The position numbers and the translations under genes are program-made. A stretch of 64,000 nucleotides of DNA from positions 2,217,001 through 2,281,000 of the forward strand of contig NZ_CP032152.1 in assembly GCF_003555505.1 (NCBI RefSeq), in the 5' to 3' direction. The notes below the pieces were generated by a model. The model was not told where the DNA came from and made no database searches. It saw only the letters and a list, made by a program, of their open reading frames with translations. Each line of letters opens with the position of its first letter. Within the stretch, counting starts at the first letter, position 1. The stretch is from Thermosynechococcus sichuanensis E542. GTDB taxonomy: Bacteria; Cyanobacteriota; Cyanobacteriia; Thermosynechococcales; Thermosynechococcaceae. Below are positions 3,998-60,192 of this stretch, piece after piece.

Positions 3998-5401
3998 ATG
4001 ACCACTGCAACACGCATAGAATACGATTCCCTAGGTGCCATTGAGGTGCCAGCGGACTGCTATTGGGGTGCCCAGACAGCGCGTTCCCTCAAGTATTTTC
4101 CCATTGGTGGCCTGCGGATGCCCCTAGAGGTGATCCATGCCATGGCGCGACTAAAAAAGGCGGCAGCGATCGCCAACCGCGATTTAGGGGTTTTAGATGC
4201 CGACAAAGCGGCATGGATTATTCAAGCCGCCACTGAGGTGATGGAGGGACGCTGGGATGATCAGTTTCCCCTCTCCATCTGGCAGACGGGCAGCGGTACC
4301 CAAACCAATATGAATGTGAATGAGGTGATTGCCAACCGTGCCATTGAACTGGCGGGGGGCGTTAAGGGGAGCAAAACTCCAATCCACCCCAATGATCATG
4401 TGAACTGTAGCCAGTCCTCGAATGACACGTTTCCGACGGCGATGCATATTGCCACGGTGATTGAGCTTCAGGAGCGACTGCTGCCGATGCTGCGGCGGCT
4501 ACTGGCGGTATTGCAGGACAAAGTAACGGCCTTTGCAGACATTATTAAAATCGGGCGCACCCACTTAATGGATGCGGTGCCCCTCACCCTTGGCCAAGAA
4601 TTCTCGGGTTACGCCAGTCAAATCGCTGCCTGCCAAACCCATATTGAGTATGCATTACAGCATCTCTATCCCCTTGCCATTGGTGGTACGGCAGTGGGTA
4701 CGGGTCTGAATGCTCCCCCCGGCTTTGGCGATCGCGTGGCAGCAGAATTGGCAGAGATGACGGGGTATCCCTTTTGCAAGGCAGAGAATTCCTTTGCCGC
4801 CTTGGCCGCCCATGATCCCTTAGTAATGCTCAGTGGTGCCCTAAAAACATTAGCCGCAGCGATGATGAAAATGGCCAATGATATTCGTTGGTTGGCCTCA
4901 GGCCCCCGCTGTGGGTTAGGGGAATTAATTTTGCCCGCTAATGAACCGGGGTCTTCGATTATGCCCGGCAAGGTGAACCCCACCCAATGTGAAGCCCTGA
5001 CGATGGTGTGTGTGCAGGTGATGGGTAACGACGCAGCAGTAGGCATCGCCGGTAGTCAAGGGAATTTTGAACTGAATGTCTTTAAGCCCCTGATCATTCA
5101 CAATGTGCTGCGCTCGATTGAACTTCTCAGTGATGCCGGGGAAGCCTTTACGCAGTTTTGCCTTGTGGGGATTGAACCCAATCGGGAGCAAATTCAGGTT
5201 CACTTGGAGCGATCGCTGATGTTGGTGACGGCCTTGAACCCCCACATTGGCTACGACAAGGCGGCAGCCGTCGCGAAAAAGGCCTATAGCGAAGGTAAAA
5301 CCCTCAAGGAAGCGGCGGTGGAATTGGGGTACCTCACGGCGGAGGAATTTGATCAGTGGGTGCGGCCAGAGTTGATGCTGGGCGAAAAGGGCACCAACTG
5401 A
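3998..5401 (+). CDS. fumC: Fumarate hydratase, class II
   Basis: The 467-residue protein catalyses reversible hydration of fumarate to malate. It carries the fumarase/aspartase signature [11 protein letters not shown] at about residues 317-327, the [10 protein letters not shown] segment and the [10 protein letters not shown] segment that form the active site, at the usual length for the oxygen-stable homotetrameric enzyme. The ATG at 3998 gives the normal N-terminus ([12 protein letters not shown]). Its last 49 bases overlap the end of the convergent dihydroorotase-like gene. Confidence 0.97.
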
Positions 5402-6621: not shown

Positions 6622-8028
6622 CTATAAGGCTCCCGCCGCTGTCCGATCCAGCACGCCCCCCAAATGGGTAGTGATATTCACTGCCTGCAATCGCGGCAGA
6701 CCACCCTTGAGGGGATAGTCAATCACCGTAACACTGCCATTGCCCTGCTTAAAGAGCCAGAAGTTGTCAATGCCGAGACCAACAATGTGGCAGAGCAAGA
6801 CCTTATTGGTGGCATCGTGAGCCACGACCAAGACATTGTGGGGGGTGGGGGGATTGGTTTTCCAGCGCTTTAGCCACACTTCCCACGCCTTCACTACGCG
6901 ATCGCGCACCTGTTCGAGGTTTTCCCCGTTGGGCATTTGCACAAGGGCAGGGGTCGTCCGCCAGCGTTCCAGTTCCCCCGGATAGGCCGCCTCCACCTCC
7001 GGTTCAAACTTGCCCTCCCAATCACCGTGGCTAATCTCTGCAAGGGCTGGTTCTAGCTCTAGCGCTACATCAGGGTGGTACTGCAAAATCGCCAAGGCCG
7101 TATCCTTGGGACGCAGGAGGGGACTACTCAAGGCATGGTGGAAAGGCACCTCCTTGAGGAACTCGGCCACCGCCGCCGCTTGGGCACGGCCATTTTCATT
7201 GAGGGGCACATCAATTTGCCCTTGGAAGCGTCCCTCGCGATTCCAGTCCGTTTCACCGTGGCGAACCAGAAAGATGCGCAGCGTTTGCTCCTTGAAGCGG
7301 GGCTGGGGAAAGGGATCATTGAGATGGCTAGTGAGATTAAGAGCTTCCAGTTGCGCTGGTTGCCGCAAGCCGTTGCTGAAATTTAAGACACTGATGCCGC
7401 CGTTGGCCTGCTGGAGCCGCAAATAGCCCTTGACCCCCAAGCCGAGAGCCGTGCAGATGAGGGCACGGTTCATGCCGCTGTGGCCAACAATGACAATCGT
7501 TTCATTTTCGTGAGCCGCTAGTAGCGCTTCCAAAACCATACCCGCGCGATCGTAGAGATCCAATAGCGGGAAAAACTCCTTGGTTTGGCCACTTTCGGTG
7601 GTGATTGTCATCATCAAGGTTTCTGGGGCTTCCTGCCAGCGGCGATAGTCCTCTGGGAATCGGGCCTTCACTTCGGCAAAGGGCAGATCTTCCCAAGCAG
7701 GCAGGGCAATCTCTTTGAGCAAATCAAGGGAGTGGGGTGGTTTAAGTTCCGGATCTTGGAGTTGGGCATGAATGCCCGCTGCGGTTTCCTTTGCCCGTTT
7801 CAGGGGGCTGGTGTAAATCTTGCGGATGGGAATGTCCCTTAGAGCGAGACCCACTTGGGCAGCCATCCAACGACCGCGCTCCGTCAGGGAAGAGGCATCA
7901 CTATGACCTTGCACTCGCTCTTGGACATTAAACGTGCTTTCACCGTGGCGGACAATAATGACTCGGGTACTCAGAGGTTTCTCCTTAGCGATTGACAGAC
8001 AACAACCTTGGCCGTCCCACCGTGCCAT
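6622..8028 (-). CDS. Tandem histidine-phosphatase / phosphoglycerate mutase-like protein
   Basis: The protein has two complete branches of the histidine phosphatase superfamily: the first begins with VIIVRHGEST at about residue 23, the second with IFLVRHGETDW at about residue 250. Each has the RHG catalytic motif and a later G-H-S-G or A-H-D-A segment. Such double proteins are common in cyanobacteria and are annotated as phosphoglycerate mutases, but the substrate is not proven. The ATG at 8028 adds about 18 residues before the conserved start; an AAGGAG lies six bases before a CTG codon at the conserved N-terminus (about 7971), so the true start is uncertain. Confidence 0.85.
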   Translation of the reverse strand: MARWDGQGCCLSIAKEKPLSTRVIIVRHGESTFNVQERVQGHSDASSLTERGRWMAAQVGLALRDIPIRKIYTSPLKRAKETAAGIHAQLQDPELKPPHSLDLLKEIALPAWEDLPFAEVKARFPEDYRRWQEAPETLMMTITTESGQTKEFFPLLDLYDRAGMVLEALLAAHENETIVIVGHSGMNRALICTALGLGVKGYLRLQQANGGISVLNFSNGLRQPAQLEALNLTSHLNDPFPQPRFKEQTLRIFLVRHGETDWNREGRFQGQIDVPLNENGRAQAAAVAEFLKEVPFHHALSSPLLRPKDTALAILQYHPDVALELEPALAEISHGDWEGKFEPEVEAAYPGELERWRTTPALVQMPNGENLEQVRDRVVKAWEVWLKRWKTNPPTPHNVLVVAHDATNKVLLCHIVGLGIDNFWLFKQGNGSVTVIDYPLKGGLPRLQAVNITTHLGGVLDRTAAGAL

Positions 8029-8113
8029 AAAGACTCTACCAGAAACCGTGGCTGCGGGAGCGAAAGATTTAGGAATCAGCAGGCATCATCCCCCTGAACA
8101 TTAGAGAAAAATC

Positions 8114-8139
8114 AAAAAACCGACCGCAGGGGCGATCGG
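8114..8139 (-). terminator. Rho-independent terminator after psbB-psbT
   Basis: On the minus strand CCGATCG, a six-base loop and CGGTCGG form a stem that is followed directly by six T. It lies about 37 bases past the psbT stop, the right place to end the psbB-psbT transcript. Confidence 0.8.
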
Positions 8140-8175
8140 CACGTATGAAAGACCGATTTGGTGATGGGTCAGAGG

Positions 8176-8274
8176 CTACTTCTTGGTGATCCGAGGAGGC
8201 TCACGGAAGAAGATGGCAAAGAAGAACAGCGCGATGATACAGGCAAAGATGAAAACGTAGGTGATGGTTTCCAT
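8176..8274 (-). CDS. psbT: Photosystem II protein PsbT
   Basis: A 32-residue single-helix protein starting METITYVFIF and ending FREPPRITKK, the classical PsbT sequence. It lies at the PSII dimer interface next to CP47 and supports repair and dimer stability. The gene sits 19 bases downstream of psbB on the same strand, the universal cyanobacterial and chloroplast arrangement, and shares its transcript and terminator. Confidence 0.98.
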   Translation of the reverse strand: METITYVFIFACIIALFFFAIFFREPPRITKK

Positions 8275-8293
8275 AGTTGTTCCCTAGGAATGA

Positions 8294-9826
8294 TTAGACA
8301 GCTTCTTTGCGACGTGTAGTGACATCGCCCACCTTTTGGTAGTAGCCCCATTCCACTTGCTCCGGCGAAAGTTCGGGATCAATCCCAGAGAAGACATCGC
8401 GGAACAGCGTGCGGGCACCATGCCAAATGTGACCAAAGAAGAAGAGCAGGGCAAATACGGCGTGGCCGAAGGTAAACCAGCCACGGGGACTGGTGCGGAA
8501 AATCCCGTCGGAGTTGAGGGTTTCCTTATCGAATTCAAAGATCTCACCGAAGATAGCTTTACGGGCATAGCTCTTGACGGTGGGTGGATCGGTGAAGGTT
8601 TGGCCGTTCAATTCACCACCGTAGAAGCTGACGGTAACCCCTTGTTGCTCAAAACTATACTTCGACTCAGCACGACGGAAGGGAATGTCGGCTTTGACAA
8701 CGCCATTCTTGTCGGTGAGGATGACGGGGAAGCTTTCAAAGAAGTTGGGCATGCGACGGACAAAGAGTTCTTCACCCTCTTTGTTACGGAAAACAGCATG
8801 GCCTTTCCAAGCTTGGGCAATCCCATCCCCTTTGTTCATCGGGCCAGTACGGAACAGACCCCCTTTAGCGGGGTTATTGCCAATGTAATCGTAGAAGGCC
8901 AGTTTCTCTGGAATCGCTGACCAAGCCTCTTCAAGGGTGGCGCCACTGGCGAGGGAGGCCTGCACGCGGCGGTTAATTTCCTGCTGGAAGTAGCCACTGT
9001 CCCACTGATAGCGAGTCGGCCCAAAGAGTTCAATCGGGGTGGTGGCACTGCCATACCACATCGTGCCGGCCACGACAAAGGCAGCAAAGAAGACGGCGGC
9101 AATACTGCTGGAGAGTACTGTTTCGATATTCCCCATGCGCAGAGCTTTGTAGAGCCGTTGGGGTGGACGCACCAGCAGGTGGAATAGACCAGCAATAATA
9201 CCGACAATACCTGCAGCGATATGGTGAGCCACCACACCACCGGGGTTGTAGGGGTTAAAGCCATCTGGTCCCCATTCCGGTGCAACCGGCTGAACACTGC
9301 CTGTCAGGCCATAGGGGTCAGAGACCCACATCCCAGGACCAAAGAGACCCGTCAGGTGGAAAGCACCAAAGCCAAAGCAGAGTAAACCGGCAAGGAACAG
9401 GTGAATGCCAAACATTTTCGGCAAGTCGAGGGCAGGCTCACCGGTGCGAGGATCGCGGAAGAGTTCGAGATCCCAATAGACCCAGTGCCAGCAGGCCGCC
9501 AAGAACAACAGACCTGAGAGGACAATGTGGGCTAGGGCAACCCCCTCAAAGCTCCAGAAACCGGGGTCAATCCCCGTTTCACCAGTAATACTCCAACCGC
9601 TCCAAGACCCCGTGACCCCCAACCGTGCCATGAAGGGCAACACAAACATTCCCTGCCGCCACATTGGGTTGAGAACGGGATCACTGGGATCAAAAATAGC
9701 TAGCTCATAAAGAGCCATCGACCCTGCCCAACCGGCGACCAATGCCGTGTGCATCAGGTGGGCCGCAATCAACCGCCCTGGATCGTTGATCAGGACAGTG
9801 TGGACTCGGTACCAAGGTAGTCCCAT
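8294..9826 (-). CDS. psbB: Photosystem II CP47 chlorophyll-binding core antenna
   Basis: The 510-residue inner antenna protein starts [11 protein letters not shown] and has six transmembrane helices with many conserved histidines that ligate chlorophyll (for example [39 protein letters not shown]) and the large lumenal loop between helices five and six. It passes excitation energy to the D1/D2 reaction centre. From memory it differs from the T. elongatus protein at only a few positions. It heads the psbB-psbT unit; the 189-base gap to the divergent ferredoxin must hold both promoters. Confidence 0.99.
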
Positions 9827-15434: not shown

Positions 15435-15616
15435 ACGCTCACCTCGCAGGGGTGTACATCTTGTTATCCATTGCTGTTGTTAGGGATATGCACCCACCCA
15501 GAAAATTGGCGATCGCCCCGCAAGACTATCCTAATGAACTATCCTAATGAAGCCGTGCCTTTATCCTTAGAAATAGCTGATGCTCAGGGTGAATTCTCGA
15601 GGGGTTCCTTAAAATC

Positions 15617-16413
15617 ATGCTCCCAGTCGCAATCGCTTCCCTACTCTTTGGCTTTGCCACCAATATGGATAACTTTAGCGTGGCAGTTAGCTATGGTCTG
15701 CGCCGCTATCGCATGGGTTGGCTGGGTAATGTCCTGATTGCCGCTCTTTCGGGTGGCAGTACCTTTTTGGCCATGGGGTTGGGGGAGTGGGTGCAGCAGT
15801 ATGTGCCGTTGATTTGGGCACAGCGCTTTGGCAGTGGTTTGCTGATGGTCATGGGGGCATCAGCACTGACCCGATGCGCGGCAAGCCCCGCCGTTCAGGG
15901 CGGGGAAGGATAGCGCGGACTTTGTTGCCTTTCTTGTCTTTGGGTTTCAGTGTGGAGTATAATTAAGATCAACATCCTTTCTCGCGGGATGCAAAAACTG
16001 CGAGACGAAGGGCGGGACACGCTGAACGCTTTCAGCGGGACGGCGCAAGCCGTCAGCCCGGATGGCCTGTGGATCGAACCGCACTGGCGGTCGGAAGCAG
16101 GAACCCACCGAAGCGAATCAGGGGCGGCTCAATGCCGTGTCTGAGCGCCGTAGGAATCCCTGTCCTTTAGGGCAGGGAGGATGTCAACCTCACGAACTTT
16201 GCCACAGGGGTAGCTGCGGGCTTGGCACAGTTACCGATCGCTAGCGCCGTTATCGCGAGTACAGTAACCAGTTGGGTCGGCATTGGCAGTGGCTTTTGGT
16301 TGGGGCAGCAACTCCGCGAACAAACCCCCTTGCGCTTTGGCCCTTACTTAGAGGGCTTGGCGAGTCTTTTTCTCATAGCGATTGGTGTCCTCGAGTGGTT
16401 TGAGTCCCCCTAG
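15617..16413 (+). pseudogene. MntP/YtaF-type membrane exporter, split by a mini element
   Basis: The first half (15617-15870) encodes about 85 residues with the family opening (SLLFGFATNMDNFSVAVSYGL) up to VMGASALT. The reading then enters element sequence and stops at 15913. The second half resumes at about 16189 with LTNFATGVAAG and runs to 16413 ending IAIGVLEWF. Together they give about 160 residues against roughly 190 for the family, so about 30 residues around the junction seem to be missing as well. The family exports Mn2+ or related cations. As it stands the gene should be inactive. Confidence 0.85.
15871..16187 (+). mobile_element. IS605/TnpB-derived mini element, copy 1 (317 bp)
   Basis: The element has a left-end hairpin (CCCCGCC 15886-15892, GGCGGGG 15899-15905) and a right-end hairpin (CCCTGTCC 16158-16165, GGGCAGGG 16170-16177), ending GATGTCAA. 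Both ends recur in copy 2 (22920-23159). The host bases just before it are TGAC in both copies, a candidate target motif; there are no direct target duplications, as expected for IS200/IS605 transposons. A promoter-like TTGTCT (15934-15939), 18 bases, TATAAT (15958-15963) lies inside. No intact tnpA or tnpB remains; the 16.0-16.1 kb part may be the decayed end of tnpB. Confidence 0.75.
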
Positions 16414-17252
16414 GGCGATCGCCAGAGCACATCGGCCATCCGACACACTTGCACCATTGCGGCCACATCATGGACGCGCACCATCTCGACCCCTTGGGCA
16501 ATGGCATGGCAGCAAACCGCTGCGGTACCCCAAACCCGGTCTTTAGGATTGGGCAGGTTCAGGACATCACCAATGAAGCGTTTGCGTGACGGGCCGATTA
16601 AAAGGGGATAGCCAAGATCGCGAAACCGCTGTAGCTCTCTGAGCAGTGTGAGGTTCTGGGGGGTGGTTTTGGCAAAGCCAATACCGGGATCAATCATCAA
16701 GTGTTCGGGGGGAATGCCGCTGGCGATCGCCCGCTGCGTTTGTTCTTGAAAATAGCAAAGCAAATCCTCAATCAAATCTTCATAGTCCGTTAATTGCTGC
16801 ATTGTGGCTGGCGTTCCCCGCCGATGCATCAGGATATAGGGCACCCCCAGTGCGGCGACTGTGGCAAACATTTCGGGATCCGCTTGCCCGCCTGAGACAT
16901 CATTGACAATATTCGCACCTGCTGCCACCGCTGCCTGAGCAACCACCGCATGGGTCGTATCAATGGAAATGGGAATCTGCGACTGCTGGCGAATGCCCTC
17001 AATCACAGGCAATACCCGCGCTAACTCAGCACTAATGGGCACTTCACTGGCTCCCGGACGGGTGGACTCACCGCCAACATCAATAACATCAACTCCAGCG
17101 GCCACCATCTCAAGGGCATGGGCAACAGCACTAGCGGGATTAAAAAAGTCACCGCCATCGCTAAAACTGTCGGGGGTGATATTCAAGATCCCCATGATGT
17201 AGGTGCGCTCTCCCCAAACAAAGGCGCGATCGCCCACATGCCAGCCCTTCAT
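16410..17252 (-). CDS. folP: Dihydropteroate synthase
   Basis: The 280-residue enzyme joins p-aminobenzoate to the pterin pyrophosphate in folate synthesis. It shows GILNITPDSFSDGG, DVGGESTRPGA, PISIDTTHA, NDVSGG and GPSRKRFIG, the full set of TIM-barrel substrate loops. Its start overlaps the stop of the GPH transporter gene by four bases; three genes (phosphohexomutase, transporter, folP) are head to tail. Its stop overlaps the broken mntP gene from the other strand by four bases. Confidence 0.96.
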   Translation of the reverse strand: MKGWHVGDRAFVWGERTYIMGILNITPDSFSDGGDFFNPASAVAHALEMVAAGVDVIDVGGESTRPGASEVPISAELARVLPVIEGIRQQSQIPISIDTTHAVVAQAAVAAGANIVNDVSGGQADPEMFATVAALGVPYILMHRRGTPATMQQLTDYEDLIEDLLCYFQEQTQRAIASGIPPEHLMIDPGIGFAKTTPQNLTLLRELQRFRDLGYPLLIGPSRKRFIGDVLNLPNPKDRVWGTAAVCCHAIAQGVEMVRVHDVAAMVQVCRMADVLWRSP

Positions 17253-26089: not shown

Positions 26090-26430
26090 AAAAAAACCTC
26101 CCTTATGCAGCTTAAAAACAACACGATTCAAAAATGGACAGTCGGGCGTGAGAAACCGCTCGCAACTGAGGCGTACGTCCAATAATGGAACGTAAAGCCC
26201 CCGCCTCTATTAGTGGTGTAGAATGACCAGCTTGGTTCACAGCGATTGTTGCTAATTGAGAACCTTGATAGATGGAGTAGAGCAAAGGCAGTAGCCGCCC
26301 TTAGCTCTTGAGTTATCCCTATTTAGGCTACCACGCTTTCTCCACCTAGGGCTAGGATTTTGCGGCAAAATTTTGCTGTGGCAGCGCAAACGCGATGTGG
26401 CACAATAATCAATGCTGTTTTTGCGATGGG
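26090..26430. other. 341-bp divergent region between rbp and chlI
   Basis: This stretch must hold the promoters of rbp (minus strand) and chlI (plus strand). GTAGCC (26291-26296) and GGCTAC (26325-26330) are an inverted pair about 28 bases apart. No convincing sigma-70 pair, terminator or gene is seen. Confidence 0.5.
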
Positions 26431-27498
26431 ATGCCTGTGACTGCGACTGCTGTACCTCGTCGGCCTGTCTTTCCCTTTGCGGCGATTGTCGGTCAAGACG
26501 AAATGAAACTGTCATTGTTGCTCAATGTGATTGACCCCAAAATTGGTGGGGTGATGATCATGGGCGATCGCGGTACGGGCAAATCAACCACAATTCGCGC
26601 CCTAGCCGATCTGCTCCCAGAAATCGAGGTGGTGGCCGATGACCCTTTTAATAGTCACCCCAGCGATCCCGATTTGATGAGCGATGCCGTGAAGGTGGCC
26701 GTAGCAGCGGGTGAGCCGATTCACACCATCAAGAAAAAAGTGCCCATGGTGGATCTACCCTTGGGGGCGACAGAGGATCGGGTGTGCGGCACGATTGACA
26801 TTGAAAAAGCCCTTGCTGAGGGGGTGAAAGCCTTTGAACCGGGACTCTTGGCCAAGGCAAATCGCGGCATCCTTTATGTGGATGAGGTCAACCTACTTGA
26901 TGATCACTTAGTGGATGTTCTCCTCGATGCCGCTGCCTCTGGCTGGAATACCGTTGAGCGGGAGGGCATTTCCATTCGTCACCCAGCACGCTTTGTCTTG
27001 GTTGGCTCTGGTAACCCCGAAGAGGGGGAGCTGCGGCCGCAACTGCTGGATCGCTTTGGTATGCACGCTGAGATTCGCACGGTGAAAGATCCAACGCTGC
27101 GGGTGGAAATTGTGGAGCAGCGATCGCAATTTGATCAAAATCCCGAAGCCTTTTTGGCCAAATACCAACCCCAACAGGAAGCCCTTCAAGCCAAGCTAGT
27201 TGCCGCCCAAGCCCTATTGCCGAGGGTCACCATTGATCATGAACTGCGGGTAAAAATTTCCCAAGTGTGTGCTGAGCTAGATGTGGATGGCCTGCGGGGA
27301 GACATTGTCACTAACCGCGCTGCCAAGGCCTTGGCTGCCTTTGAGGGACGCACCGATGTTACCGTTGACGATATTGCGCGGGTGATTGTCCTGTGTCTGC
27401 GGCACCGACTGCGCAAGGATCCGCTTGAATCCATTGACTCCGGCTACAAAGTGGGCAAAGTCTTCCAAGAGGTCTTTGGTGTGGAGATTGCTGCCTAA
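26431..27498 (+). CDS. chlI: Magnesium chelatase ATPase subunit I
   Basis: The 355-residue AAA+ protein has Walker [10 protein letters not shown], Walker [11 protein letters not shown], sensor [19 protein letters not shown] and the C-terminal helical lid. ChlI and ChlD drive Mg2+ insertion into protoporphyrin IX by ChlH, the first step specific to chlorophyll. The frame extends 12 residues upstream to 26395, but starting at the ATG at 26431 gives the normal family length. It stands alone, convergent with the CARF-HEPN gene whose stop directly abuts it. Confidence 0.97.
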
Positions 27499-29004
27499 TT
27501 ACTTCAGTTGCTCTAGTCCCCACTCGTAGAGCGATCGCGCCACCCCTTTTTCTGGCATTTGTTTTTGATGGAGAACTTGGCAAAGGACATTTAACAGCCC
27601 TTGATGAATTTCTGCTGGGTCTGCCTCTAGGGAAACATCGGCCAACTGAGTCAACTCTTTACGGCTGATCGCTCGATTGCGGTGAACAACGCCATTGCGA
27701 TATTCATTGACGTTCGCCAGTTTTTTGACGAAGGAATCATCCGGCGATCGCTGCTCCACTTTTGCCCATGCCCGCCACAGGATCCCCAATGTCGGATCGC
27801 GATAGTTACCTTCCTGCAAGAATTCCTCACCTAAATGCCCCTGAGTACGCCAATCTTCCTTTTCCGATCGCCAAAACAGGAGCCGTTCAAGCATCTGGGC
27901 AAATTGCATAAAGGCTAGGGTGTAGTTCTCCTGCTGTAAGCTCAGATCAATCAATAGCTCAAATTCCCAAATTTTCAAGAACTTGCTAGTGGCCGTTTCG
28001 CTATTGGGACAGCGATTAACTGTTGCTTCACACCACTGCTGCCGTTGAGCTTTGTGGGTCACTGTTCGGGTAGGTTTTTGATCTAGCCAGCCTTCTCCCT
28101 GAATGCCCTTGAGAAAATCTTGAATACTCCAGTTAGTGGCTATGGCAAGGCGATCGGCCAACTGATAAAGCGCCTCATGGCGATCGCGATGGGCTTCAAG
28201 GAGTACCTTGGCAGCAGTAAAGTCACCCCGTTTCCATGCTGTGGCAATTCGCTGGCGCTCCAGTGGCCAAAAGACTTCACCTAAAGACACCACTTCAAAA
28301 GATTCAGCACTGCGGGCAGACTGATTGCTTGAATCAAAGAACGGTTTTGGCTCTGTCGGGATAATTTTGCTAACGGGATACTGCCGCATGAGAACTGCTG
28401 CAATCAGGTTTAGAGCGTCTGCAATTTGAGGGACAGACCCCTTCGTTTGAATTTGCAACTGCCAATGACCAGCAGCGTTCTCTGGTAAACTCTCAATATA
28501 TTGCTCTAACTGCTTTTCTGTTAAGTCCCACAGGGCTTGCTTGTCATTCACATCAACTGGACAGTCCCAAACCGTGACCTTGAGGTGGGGGTAGCGCTGC
28601 TGAATCGCTCCTGCCATTAACTTCGCCAACCAGCAAGTATCCATCGCGTAAAATTGCCAGCCAACTGATTCTGGCTGATCCGTTCCCCAGAGGATGACTT
28701 CTGCGGCTTCCGTTGGCGTGGCATAGTGCTCCGCCAAGATTTTCTCATCTAGCAGCAAAACCACTCGCGAAAAGTCATTCTTGGCTTGACAATGCTGATG
28801 AACAATCTCGCTTAAATAGCGCACATTGTAGCGGTACTTGCCCTCAGAATCATAGCAACCGCGTTCGACGCCAAATTCCCGATACAGTTCGTCAAGATGA
28901 GGAGGCTCCTTGCGACTGCCATCCGCTCCAAAACTGCGCACAATACCGTCATTACACTGCCAGCCCACCTGTCGGTTGCCCACAGTAATAATCAGTGTTT
29001 TCAT
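27499..29004 (-). CDS. Candidate CARF-HEPN RNase (Csm6/Csx1-like), no CRISPR genes nearby
   Basis: The 501-residue protein opens with KTLIITVGNRQVGW, a Rossmann-type strand and ligand loop as in CARF domains. Residues 185-205 (Q-T-K-G-S, then ALNLIAAVL) resemble the CARF T-K-G/S helix that contacts cyclic oligoadenylate. The C-terminus has NEYRNGVVH, i.e. R436-x4-H441, the HEPN RNase motif R-x4-6-H. The frame is open to 29175, but the ATG at 29004 starts the conserved strand and avoids overlap with ylqF. If right, cyclic oligoadenylate from a type III CRISPR system elsewhere would activate it. A CRISPR-unrelated HEPN nuclease is the main alternative. Confidence 0.6.
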   Translation of the reverse strand: MKTLIITVGNRQVGWQCNDGIVRSFGADGSRKEPPHLDELYREFGVERGCYDSEGKYRYNVRYLSEIVHQHCQAKNDFSRVVLLLDEKILAEHYATPTEAAEVILWGTDQPESVGWQFYAMDTCWLAKLMAGAIQQRYPHLKVTVWDCPVDVNDKQALWDLTEKQLEQYIESLPENAAGHWQLQIQTKGSVPQIADALNLIAAVLMRQYPVSKIIPTEPKPFFDSSNQSARSAESFEVVSLGEVFWPLERQRIATAWKRGDFTAAKVLLEAHRDRHEALYQLADRLAIATNWSIQDFLKGIQGEGWLDQKPTRTVTHKAQRQQWCEATVNRCPNSETATSKFLKIWEFELLIDLSLQQENYTLAFMQFAQMLERLLFWRSEKEDWRTQGHLGEEFLQEGNYRDPTLGILWRAWAKVEQRSPDDSFVKKLANVNEYRNGVVHRNRAISRKELTQLADVSLEADPAEIHQGLLNVLCQVLHQKQMPEKGVARSLYEWGLEQLK

Positions 29005-29032: not shown

Positions 29033-29881
29033 CTAAATGTTATCTTGCCAAGGGGGATGCTCAAGGGCGATCGCCCCCAAGTAACCTCGGCGGTAGTCCT
29101 GCAACAGTTGTCGTGCCGCCCGTTCCAAGTCGCCGTGGTAGCGGTTAGTGGCGAGATCATGAAGATAGGTTTCACCCGTGTCGGTGACGGCTAAACCATA
29201 GCGATCGCTTAGGCGATCGGCGTGTCCCAACTGGTGCAGTAGCTCAACAAGAATCGGTGCCACCCGGCAAGGATCGTAGGCCGCTTGGCCAATGTCATCA
29301 CAAATGGCTAGTTTTACTGCCGCCTCTTGATTCTTGAAATTCATCGGTAAGACACCGGGGGCATCCAAAAGTTCCAAGGTGGGAGACAAACGCACCCAAC
29401 GCAGTTGCCGCGTCACCCCTGGCCGAGCGGCACTCTCGACGACCCGTTGCTGCAACAAGCGATTAATCAGTGCTGACTTGCCCACATTGGGAAACCCCAG
29501 AACCACAGCTCGCACGGCTCGCATTTGCATACCCCGCTGTTGACGGCGTTGATTCATGGCAGCCCCTGCCCGCACCGCCGCCTGTTGGAGTCGGCGAATC
29601 CCTTCACCCCGCTGTGCATTGGTGAAAAAGACGGTTTCTCCTTGGGTCTCAAACCATGTCAGCCACTGCTGGCGATCGCGATCGCTAATTCTGTCCATAC
29701 CATTGAGCACCAAAAGACGGTGTTTGCCACTCGCCCACTGACGAATCTGGGGATGGCAACTGGCAAGGGGAATCCGCGCATCCCGCACTTCAAAAATCAC
29801 ATCCACCTGTTTCAGTTGTTCCTTCAGGGCGCGTTCTGCCTTGGCAATGTGGCCGGGATACCATTGAATAATCGGACTCAT
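29033..29881 (-). CDS. ylqF: Ribosome biogenesis GTPase YlqF/RbgA
   Basis: A 282-residue circularly permuted GTPase: the G4-type LLVLNGMD comes first (about residue 60), then G1 GFPNVGKSALINRL at about 130 and G3 LLDAPGVLP at about 175. The N-terminal QWYPGHIAKAERAL is typical. RbgA helps late 50S assembly. The G4 motif reads N-G-M-D rather than N-K-x-D. The CARF-HEPN gene follows 28 bases downstream on the same strand. Confidence 0.94.
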   Translation of the reverse strand: MSPIIQWYPGHIAKAERALKEQLKQVDVIFEVRDARIPLASCHPQIRQWASGKHRLLVLNGMDRISDRDRQQWLTWFETQGETVFFTNAQRGEGIRRLQQAAVRAGAAMNQRRQQRGMQMRAVRAVVLGFPNVGKSALINRLLQQRVVESAARPGVTRQLRWVRLSPTLELLDAPGVLPMNFKNQEAAVKLAICDDIGQAAYDPCRVAPILVELLHQLGHADRLSDRYGLAVTDTGETYLHDLATNRYHGDLERAARQLLQDYRRGYLGAIALEHPPWQDNI

Positions 29882-59376: not shown

Positions 59377-60192
59377 ATGCTCGATTTAGACACCTGTTAC
59401 CGGGTACTGGAGTTGGAGCCAGGGGCAACCCTCGAGGAAGTGAACCGAGCTTATCGGGATTTGGTGTTTATTTGGCATCCCGATCGCATCCCGAAGGACA
59501 ACACACGGCTCATCGAGAAGGCACACGAGAAAATTAAGCAATTTAATGAAGCGCGGGATCAACTGCGGCAGCATATTACCCGACACGGCAGCCAAACCTC
59601 CCAGCGGGCAACGAGCCAGCAGCAAACCTATCGTTCCTCACCCCCGCCCCCACGCTATCAATCCAATCCCTATACCTATCGCAGCTATCATGCGCCCCGT
59701 GAGCGGCAGCAAACCACACAGCACACCTACACCTATAGTCAACACCACAACCACCCCTACGGCACCTATCAACGCCAACGGACTGCTGCTCCACCGCCCC
59801 CAGAGCCACCGCGCACGACGCCGCCCCCCAAGGATATGTCAGGGGTCAATTTACAGGGAGCCAACCTTAGCGAAAAGGACTTTGAAGGCCGCAACCTCAG
59901 CCATGCCAATCTCAGCTATGCCGATCTCAGTGATGCCTTTTTGCACCGCGTGATTCTCCACCGTGCCAACTTACGCCACGCTAATCTCTTTCGTGCCAAT
60001 TTGCTGCAAGCGGATCTCAGCTATGCCGACCTACAAGAGGCCAATCTCATTGGTGCGGACTTGAGTGGTGCCGATCTGCGGGGTGCCGATCTGCGAGGAG
60101 CCAAGATGAGCCAAGGCAATCGCCTTCTAGTGAAACTGACTGGAGCACGCCTCACGGGAGCAATTATGCCCGATGGGCACGTCCACACCTAG
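59377..60192 (+). CDS. J-domain protein with pentapeptide-repeat C-terminus
   Basis: A 271-residue protein: J-like domain in the first 70 residues with the HPD motif in WHPDRIP; a His/Tyr/Gln/Thr/Pro-rich linker (about 75-155) with many YxYxx and PPPP elements; then a right-handed pentapeptide helix with about 18 A-(N/D)-L-x-x units. The J-domain should recruit DnaK; the partner fold is a scaffold. The frame opens at 59359; ATG at 59377 starts [13 protein letters not shown] and is preferred. Confidence 0.88.

Follow-up and report, generated by a model that had tools for sequence, protein, structure and literature searches.

A CARF-HEPN gene between chlI and ylqF of Thermosynechococcus sichuanensis E542 and its probable role as a detached effector of the host type III-B system

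Within the 64-kb stretch of the Thermosynechococcus sichuanensis E542 chromosome that was analysed here (contig NZ_CP032152.1, positions 2,217,001 to 2,281,000; in the following the window), the gene at 27499..29004 on the minus strand codes for a protein of 501 amino acids (aa), followed by a stop codon, that was identified by its matches to the PADLOC profiles PDLC01805 and PDLC01031 as a CARF-HEPN (Csx1/Csm6-like) effector. Based on sequence comparison, this protein is very probably a Csx1-like CARF-HEPN ribonuclease (RNase) belonging to the host's own type III-B (Cmr) system, which in Thermosynechococcus has become separated from the cmr operon. The gene reads as a III-B effector because of its family match, its conserved motifs, the III-B operon of the host, the linkage to cmr genes in relatives and the decay together with cas10 in sister genomes. 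A first-pass annotation, made from the letters of the window alone, had described the gene as an orphan, which holds true for the window but not for the genome, as the type III-B operon is located on the same chromosome.

As judged from profile comparison, the protein is a member of a known CARF-HEPN (Csx1/Csm6-like) family that is already covered by PADLOC, and not of a new one. PDLC01805 (CARF1--CARF_HEPN) matched residues 1-501 with profile positions 1-481 of 482 (E-value (E) 5.4e-154), an end-to-end match which means that the family is already part of a defence-system library, and the general Csx1/Csm6 model PDLC01031 matched residues 1-452 (E 1.7e-27); for the protein itself, no Pfam family above cut-off and no NCBIfam family was found. 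Conservation was assessed in an alignment of 24 proteins, consisting of the window protein (P0001) and 23 homologues that are 26-83% identical to it, from which L059 (genome G300; lower coverage) and the partial or distant homologues L042, L061-L063, L066, L067 and L071-L074 were excluded. Here R436, N437 and H441 were found to be invariant in all 24 sequences, so that a conservation check on R436 and H441 that had been set in advance was passed, and a chance R-x4-H motif is excluded by this invariance; in L059 the motif reads RNAIVH. The predicted catalytic motif R436-N-G-V-V-H441 (27682..27699, on the minus strand like all parts of the gene) locates to the HEPN region (approximately residues 340-501; 27502..27987), which was delimited by PADLOC profiles and conservation, together with a sub-threshold PDB profile match, whereby its border is as approximate as that of the CARF region (approximately residues 1-245; 28270..29004), for which a CARF fold is predicted from profile matches and conservation. 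Within the CARF region the N-terminal motif T7-x-G9-x-R11-Q12-x-G14-W15 is conserved and 23 of the 24 proteins keep K188 and G189 within the T-K-G-S motif, whereby T187-K188-G189 (28438..28446) may be the counterpart of the T-H-G within the Csx1 ligand motif DxTHG, a placement made by eye and without alignment against the available part of a report on Synechocystis effectors (PMC9676260). The middle part (approximately residues 246-339; 27988..28269) was recognised by its conservation, with W246, W257, G260, F262, L269, L282, A283, L286 and W324 being invariant, and is probably helical, the helices being taken from a model of very low confidence. When Pfam was applied to the 24 aligned members, HEPN_RiboL-PSP was returned in eight of them (weak; best E 0.049), and the best single E, 0.0031, belonged to MauJ in one member. 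Viral contigs scanned with the family alignment contained no relative, and a search of the genome-contig collection returned one fragment only (L002). The CARF-HEPN assignment of the first-pass annotation was hence borne out at the profile and motif level, and the residues it had pointed out, R436-x4-H441 and T187-K188-G189-S190, are present as described.

The host genome (G000; one contig of 2,650,294 bp) was found to contain a type III-B operon at 1.168-1.176 Mb, 1.07 Mb away from the effector gene, which comprises Cas10b (PDLC02052, E 0), Cmr3, Cmr4, Cmr5 (E 7.9e-59) and a Cmr6-Cmr1 fusion, the latter being an open reading frame (ORF) of 624 aa that matches Cmr6 and then Cmr1; the subunits Cmr1, Cmr3, Cmr4, Cmr5 and Cmr6 were thus all matched. 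The Cas10 ORF is 1058 aa long and carries a GGDD cyclase motif at residue 827. The flanks of the operon include serA-like, prmA-like and lpxB-like proteins, as read from the translations, and CARF models gave no match among the ten proteins scanned at this site (five of the operon and five flanking). A cas1 gene of the host is located at 2003350 with 15 repeats adjoining (array at 2004988), and 11 similar repeats were found at 4433-5181, whereby these 26 repeats are of a non-III-B kind and lie at least 0.83 Mb from the III-B core; no array-like repeats were found in the 35 kb around the cmr operon. The cas1 gene and its adjoining array were taken as the type I system reported for the strain in the available part of PMC9403480. 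The genome search for cas10 and repeat arrays that had been proposed for this gene consequently yielded both, a Cas10b with a GGDD motif and two arrays of a non-III-B repeat.

Homologues from outside the genus locate mostly next to cmr genes. Among 388 genomes of the class, 40 had a homologue match, and loci were covered for 39 of these, with G039 (homologue pieces) being left out; the outside-genus set amounts to 30 loci in 29 genomes. A cmr gene was identified within 10 kb in 23 of the 30 loci, and in all 23 the nearest one shares the strand of the homologue; linkage was found in 17 of 17 loci when those were considered in which the homologue is full-length or nearly so, its identity reaches at least 33% and the contig measures at least 5.9 kb. 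In six loci (L045, L046, L048, L054, L057 and L061) cmr6-1 is the nearest gene, at a distance of 21-216 bp. Cas10 was matched in 33 of the 40 homologue-bearing genomes of the class as compared to 155 of the 348 genomes without a homologue. The seven homologue-bearing genomes without Cas10 are G030, G044, G147 and G168, all of which belong to the genus and carry a broken gene, G136, whose homologue is a remnant, G277, where cmr4-6 reside on the contig of the homologue, and G365. Full-length relatives are also encoded by five cyanobacterial plasmid records, where they are annotated as hypothetical proteins. As a separate observation, genome G237 contains two CARF-HEPN copies of the effector's family within one cmr locus (L041:8807-10351 and 15614-17248).

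Within Thermosynechococcus, for which 11 genomes were searched with the host Cas10 and the effector protein, the gene decays alongside cas10. A near-complete cas10 was identified in G000, G058, G102 and G140, a fragmentary one in G092 and G202 and none in G030, G044, G133, G147 and G168; the effector gene is intact in four of the four genomes with a near-complete cas10 and in none of the seven in which cas10 is absent or fragmentary (nominal Fisher p 0.003), being broken or absent in 7 of the 11 genomes. Nearly full-length Cmr5 and Cmr6-Cmr1 matches were obtained in G058, G102 and G140 as well. A stand-alone effector acting in trans, one of two options offered by the first-pass annotation, fits these data, with the III-B operon and its GGDD Cas10 present in the host genome and the gene being intact in no genus genome without a near-complete cas10. 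The chlI-ylqF site is common to nine of the 11 genus genomes, so that effector remnants are found at the same place, and in G102 and G133 no ylqF was found in the 10 kb fetched around chlI. In G030 an antisense-oriented group II intron interrupts the remnant (L064:10014-11127), in G168 an IS200-type transposase gene takes the place of the CARF half, which is missing (L070:10043-11213), and in G044 and G147 the gene is reduced to its two ends. As G147 keeps cas1, lacks cas10 and possesses an effector remnant only, the loss in this genome follows cas10 and not CRISPR (clustered regularly interspaced short palindromic repeats) in general. The said stretch of G168 (L070:10043-11213) also contains a frame which, read by eye, looks TnpB-type and for which no Pfam match was obtained.

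In a tree calculated from five flanking genes (from chlI alone for G102 and G133), the losses fall on (G202,G168), (G030,G147,G044) and G092, whereby intact G000 groups with (G202,G168) at a support of 97, intact G140 groups with the G030 group at 73 and the placement of G092 is supported by 59 and 81. If the intact state is ancestral, at least two and probably three effector losses occurred, each alongside cas10. The frames of the host Cas10 and of the effector are open end to end, and the ratio of nonsynonymous to synonymous substitution rates (dN/dS) of the effector amounts to 0.16-0.24 among G000, G058 and G140 (rbcL 0.01-0.03); for the pair G000 and G058 it is 0.24 for the effector and 0.135 for Cas10, and between G000 and G102 the dS of Cas10 reaches 1.85 and is hence near saturation.

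The copy of G102 resides at a different site, at a distance of 1.5 kb from an array of six copies; the repeat of this array is one base off that of a 27-copy array adjoining the genome's own cas1 and cmr operon, which ties this detached copy directly to the III-B repeat type. When up to three mismatches in 36 positions were allowed, this G102-type III-B repeat was identified in 2 of the 11 genus genomes, namely G102 and G133, and was not found in the other nine. Concerning the arrangement in these and related genomes, the six-copy array of G102 spans L039:6970-7388 and is followed by a DUF559-like gene at 7540-8682, beside the detached effector, and the III-B-type arrays of G133 are located at G133:C1:269224 (four copies), 703223 (eight) and 1995769 (three), each with at most three mismatches; cas1, cas10 and effector were not found in G133. 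A looser scan of chosen stretches returned a lone copy with seven mismatches a few hundred bases upstream of cas10 in G140, and in the chosen stretches of G000 and G058 no copy below 12 mismatches (shuffled sequences 11 to 17).

The suggested mode of action assumes that the Cmr complex meets its target RNA, upon which Cas10 with its GGDD palm motif would make cyclic oligoadenylate (cOA). This messenger would diffuse and bind to the CARF part of a presumed dimer, whereby the T-K-G and T-x-G-x-R-Q motifs perhaps line the CARF pocket. The bound CARF part would then switch on the HEPN pair, in which R436 and H441 are expected to cut RNA nonspecifically, and this cutting would slow both phage and cell. 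As a diffusible messenger needs no gene linkage, separation of the effector gene from the operon may be tolerated. CRISPR RNAs (crRNAs) would be borrowed by the III-B core from arrays of another repeat type: purifying selection in lineages without a III-B-type array suggests that the system is in use, from which borrowed crRNAs may be deduced. A further-reading proposal, which we put forward tentatively and rate slightly short of an even chance, is that the type III system is scattered over the chromosome and works wholly in trans, with a III-B core lacking an array of its own type that uses guides from the other arrays (26 repeats, at least 0.83 Mb away) and, by means of cOA, signals to two CARF-HEPN RNases whose genes are unlinked, the effector being one of them, the whole being older than the chlI-ylqF clade and having been lost repeatedly as one unit despite its unlinked parts. 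The effector remnants at the chlI-ylqF site of G030 and G147 and the cas10 pieces in G092 and G202 argue for an older presence and repeated loss, as against the available part of an earlier report, which describes the III-B systems of CL-1 and SCTE542 as acquired by their common ancestor (PMC7005997).

Several findings weigh against the assignment of the protein to the host III-B system. No match to the effector was found among PDB sequences, and a PDB profile search gave a hit below threshold to Csm6' (8pcw, E 0.18), in whose alignment the R-x4-H motifs coincide; a single-sequence AlphaFold2 model was of very low confidence (mean predicted local distance difference test score 37.7, predicted template modelling score 0.22). 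In G000 the G102 repeat has no match at up to three mismatches in 36, i.e. a III-B-type array of its own was not found, and as a consequence the III-B complex either relies on borrowed crRNAs or stands idle. For 7 of the 30 loci outside the genus, the fetched stretch contains no cmr gene at a distance of up to 10 kb, these being L052 and L059 (genes of full or nearly full length, with contigs below 4 kb), L065 (a protein of 26% identity), L066 (a contig-end piece), L067 (a 134-aa stretch) and the distant partial matches L072 and L074, with a Cas10 about 9.5 kb away from L074, just beyond the stretch. G365 combines a full-length homologue with no Cas10 match, the homologue being on a 3.9-kb contig of a draft assembly fragmented into about 1110 contigs, and the Cas10 profile also matched E. 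coli among 14 named control genomes, so that some of the weak class-wide matches counted above are probably not Cas10 and maybe GGDEF-like proteins. Within the genus, the effector is unlinked from cmr in four of the four intact cases, and G133 possesses III-B-type repeats and neither cas10 nor effector gene. In the cas10 of G140 (L124) a C run close to the 5' end is off by one base in length, which shifts the reading frame and is perhaps an assembly error; when this cas10 is counted as broken, the Fisher p of 0.003 becomes 0.024, and both p-values overstate the association, as the 11 genomes belong to one genus and are related.

A different explanation, judged unlikely, is that the gene is of the right family and the host III-B system no longer functional, which would make the effector a recent remnant in the course of being lost, as in G030 and G147. 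The missing III-B-type repeats of G000 (none at up to three mismatches, none below 12 in the loosely scanned stretches) and the seven broken or absent effector genes among the 11 genus members would suit this explanation, as would the published view, in the available part of PMC7005997, that the III-B systems of CL-1 and SCTE542 are partial, lacking cmr1 and cmr5 among other genes, and probably not functional. However, G000 possesses both, Cmr5 and the Cmr1 that is fused to Cmr6, which bears on that view, its Cas10 and effector frames are fully open with the G000-G058 dN/dS values given above, and two other arrays, of 15 and 11 repeats, are found in the host genome.

Less probable still is that the protein acts as a CARF ring nuclease or decoy which mainly removes cOA, the real RNase being a second stand-alone CARF-HEPN protein of the host. 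The gene of the latter was identified at 1494259-1495524 of G000 (L118:12260-13525); its product of 422 aa belongs to another subfamily (PDLC01806) and carries the motif RNNVVH. Its existence and the conservation of K188 would favour such a role, since in some CARF ring nucleases a lysine is involved. A precedent is SyCsm6 of Synechocystis, a CARF protein described as having no RNase activity in vitro and as degrading cOA in the available part of PMC9676260. This role is opposed by the invariance of R436, N437 and H441 among the effector homologues and by the distribution of the second gene, which among the 11 genus genomes is intact in two that carry cas10 (G000 and G140), present as pieces in five and without a match in four, including G058 and G102, in both of which cas10 and effector are retained (the general Csx1/Csm6 profile was not searched there, so that further effectors may occur in these two). 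Finally, a stand-alone non-CRISPR sensor-nuclease that answers a signal other than the cOA of Cas10, the other option of the first-pass annotation, is very improbable. In its favour, the window shows no Cas10, Cas1 or array and every CARF family is stated to include genes unlinked to CRISPR-Cas (PMC4012209, available part); against it, cmr genes lie beside the relatives in 23 of the 30 outside-genus loci, intactness tracks cas10 within the genus and the G102 copy lies next to an array with III-B-type repeats.

Considering the gene in its surroundings, the ORF was confirmed at 27499-29004 on the minus strand, between chlI and ylqF. It starts with an ATG at 29004, and the frame remains open further upstream to a GTG at 29175, within ylqF, whereby the ATG is favoured by the homologues. 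The flanking genes, named by the first-pass annotation, are outside the system and mark the site shared with the relatives: chlI (26395..27498, plus strand) lies tail to tail with the effector gene, and the gene of the ylqF-like GTPase (29033..29881, minus strand) precedes it by 28 bp on the same strand. No array-like direct repeats were found in the window, the sole repeat family with copies at most 400 bases apart being three 26-nt copies at 59902-60032, and the genome-wide searches gave no further window match to Cas10, Cas1 or Csx1/Csm6, other cas families not having been searched for; the earlier description of the window as lacking cas genes and arrays stands to this extent.

No paper on this gene was found in the open-licence literature, nor was anything relevant on effectors whose genes lie remote from type III loci, and the terms CARF and HEPN are absent from the main texts of the Thermosynechococcus papers PMC9403480 and PMC7005997. 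The findings indicate that an orphan-looking CARF-HEPN gene among housekeeping genes can serve a distant type III system, and that decay together with cas10 in sister genomes reveals its partner. Compared to known systems, the effector resembles the Csx1 and Csm6 effectors of type III systems in its CARF and HEPN profile match, its R-x4-H motif and the type III system encoded in the same genome, and differs from them in lying unlinked from the operon. SyCsx1 of Synechocystis 6803 was characterised as an RNase depending on cyclic tetra-adenylate (cA4), and in place of the DxTHG described for Csx1 the effector reads IQTKGS, as placed by eye (PMC9676260, available part). Csm6-2, as far as described in the available part of PMC13187428, likewise serves a type III system as CARF-HEPN effector; the effector possesses one CARF and one HEPN by profile match, and membership in Csm6-2 was ruled out, as the tandem architecture is absent. 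The PDLC01806 protein of the same genome is, like the effector, a stand-alone CARF-HEPN with an R-x4-H motif encoded far from cmr, and is set apart by its subfamily, its length and its being intact in two genus genomes only. With respect to PDLC01805 (CARF1--CARF_HEPN), the effector represents the family itself, the only difference being that its gene lies apart from the cmr operon.
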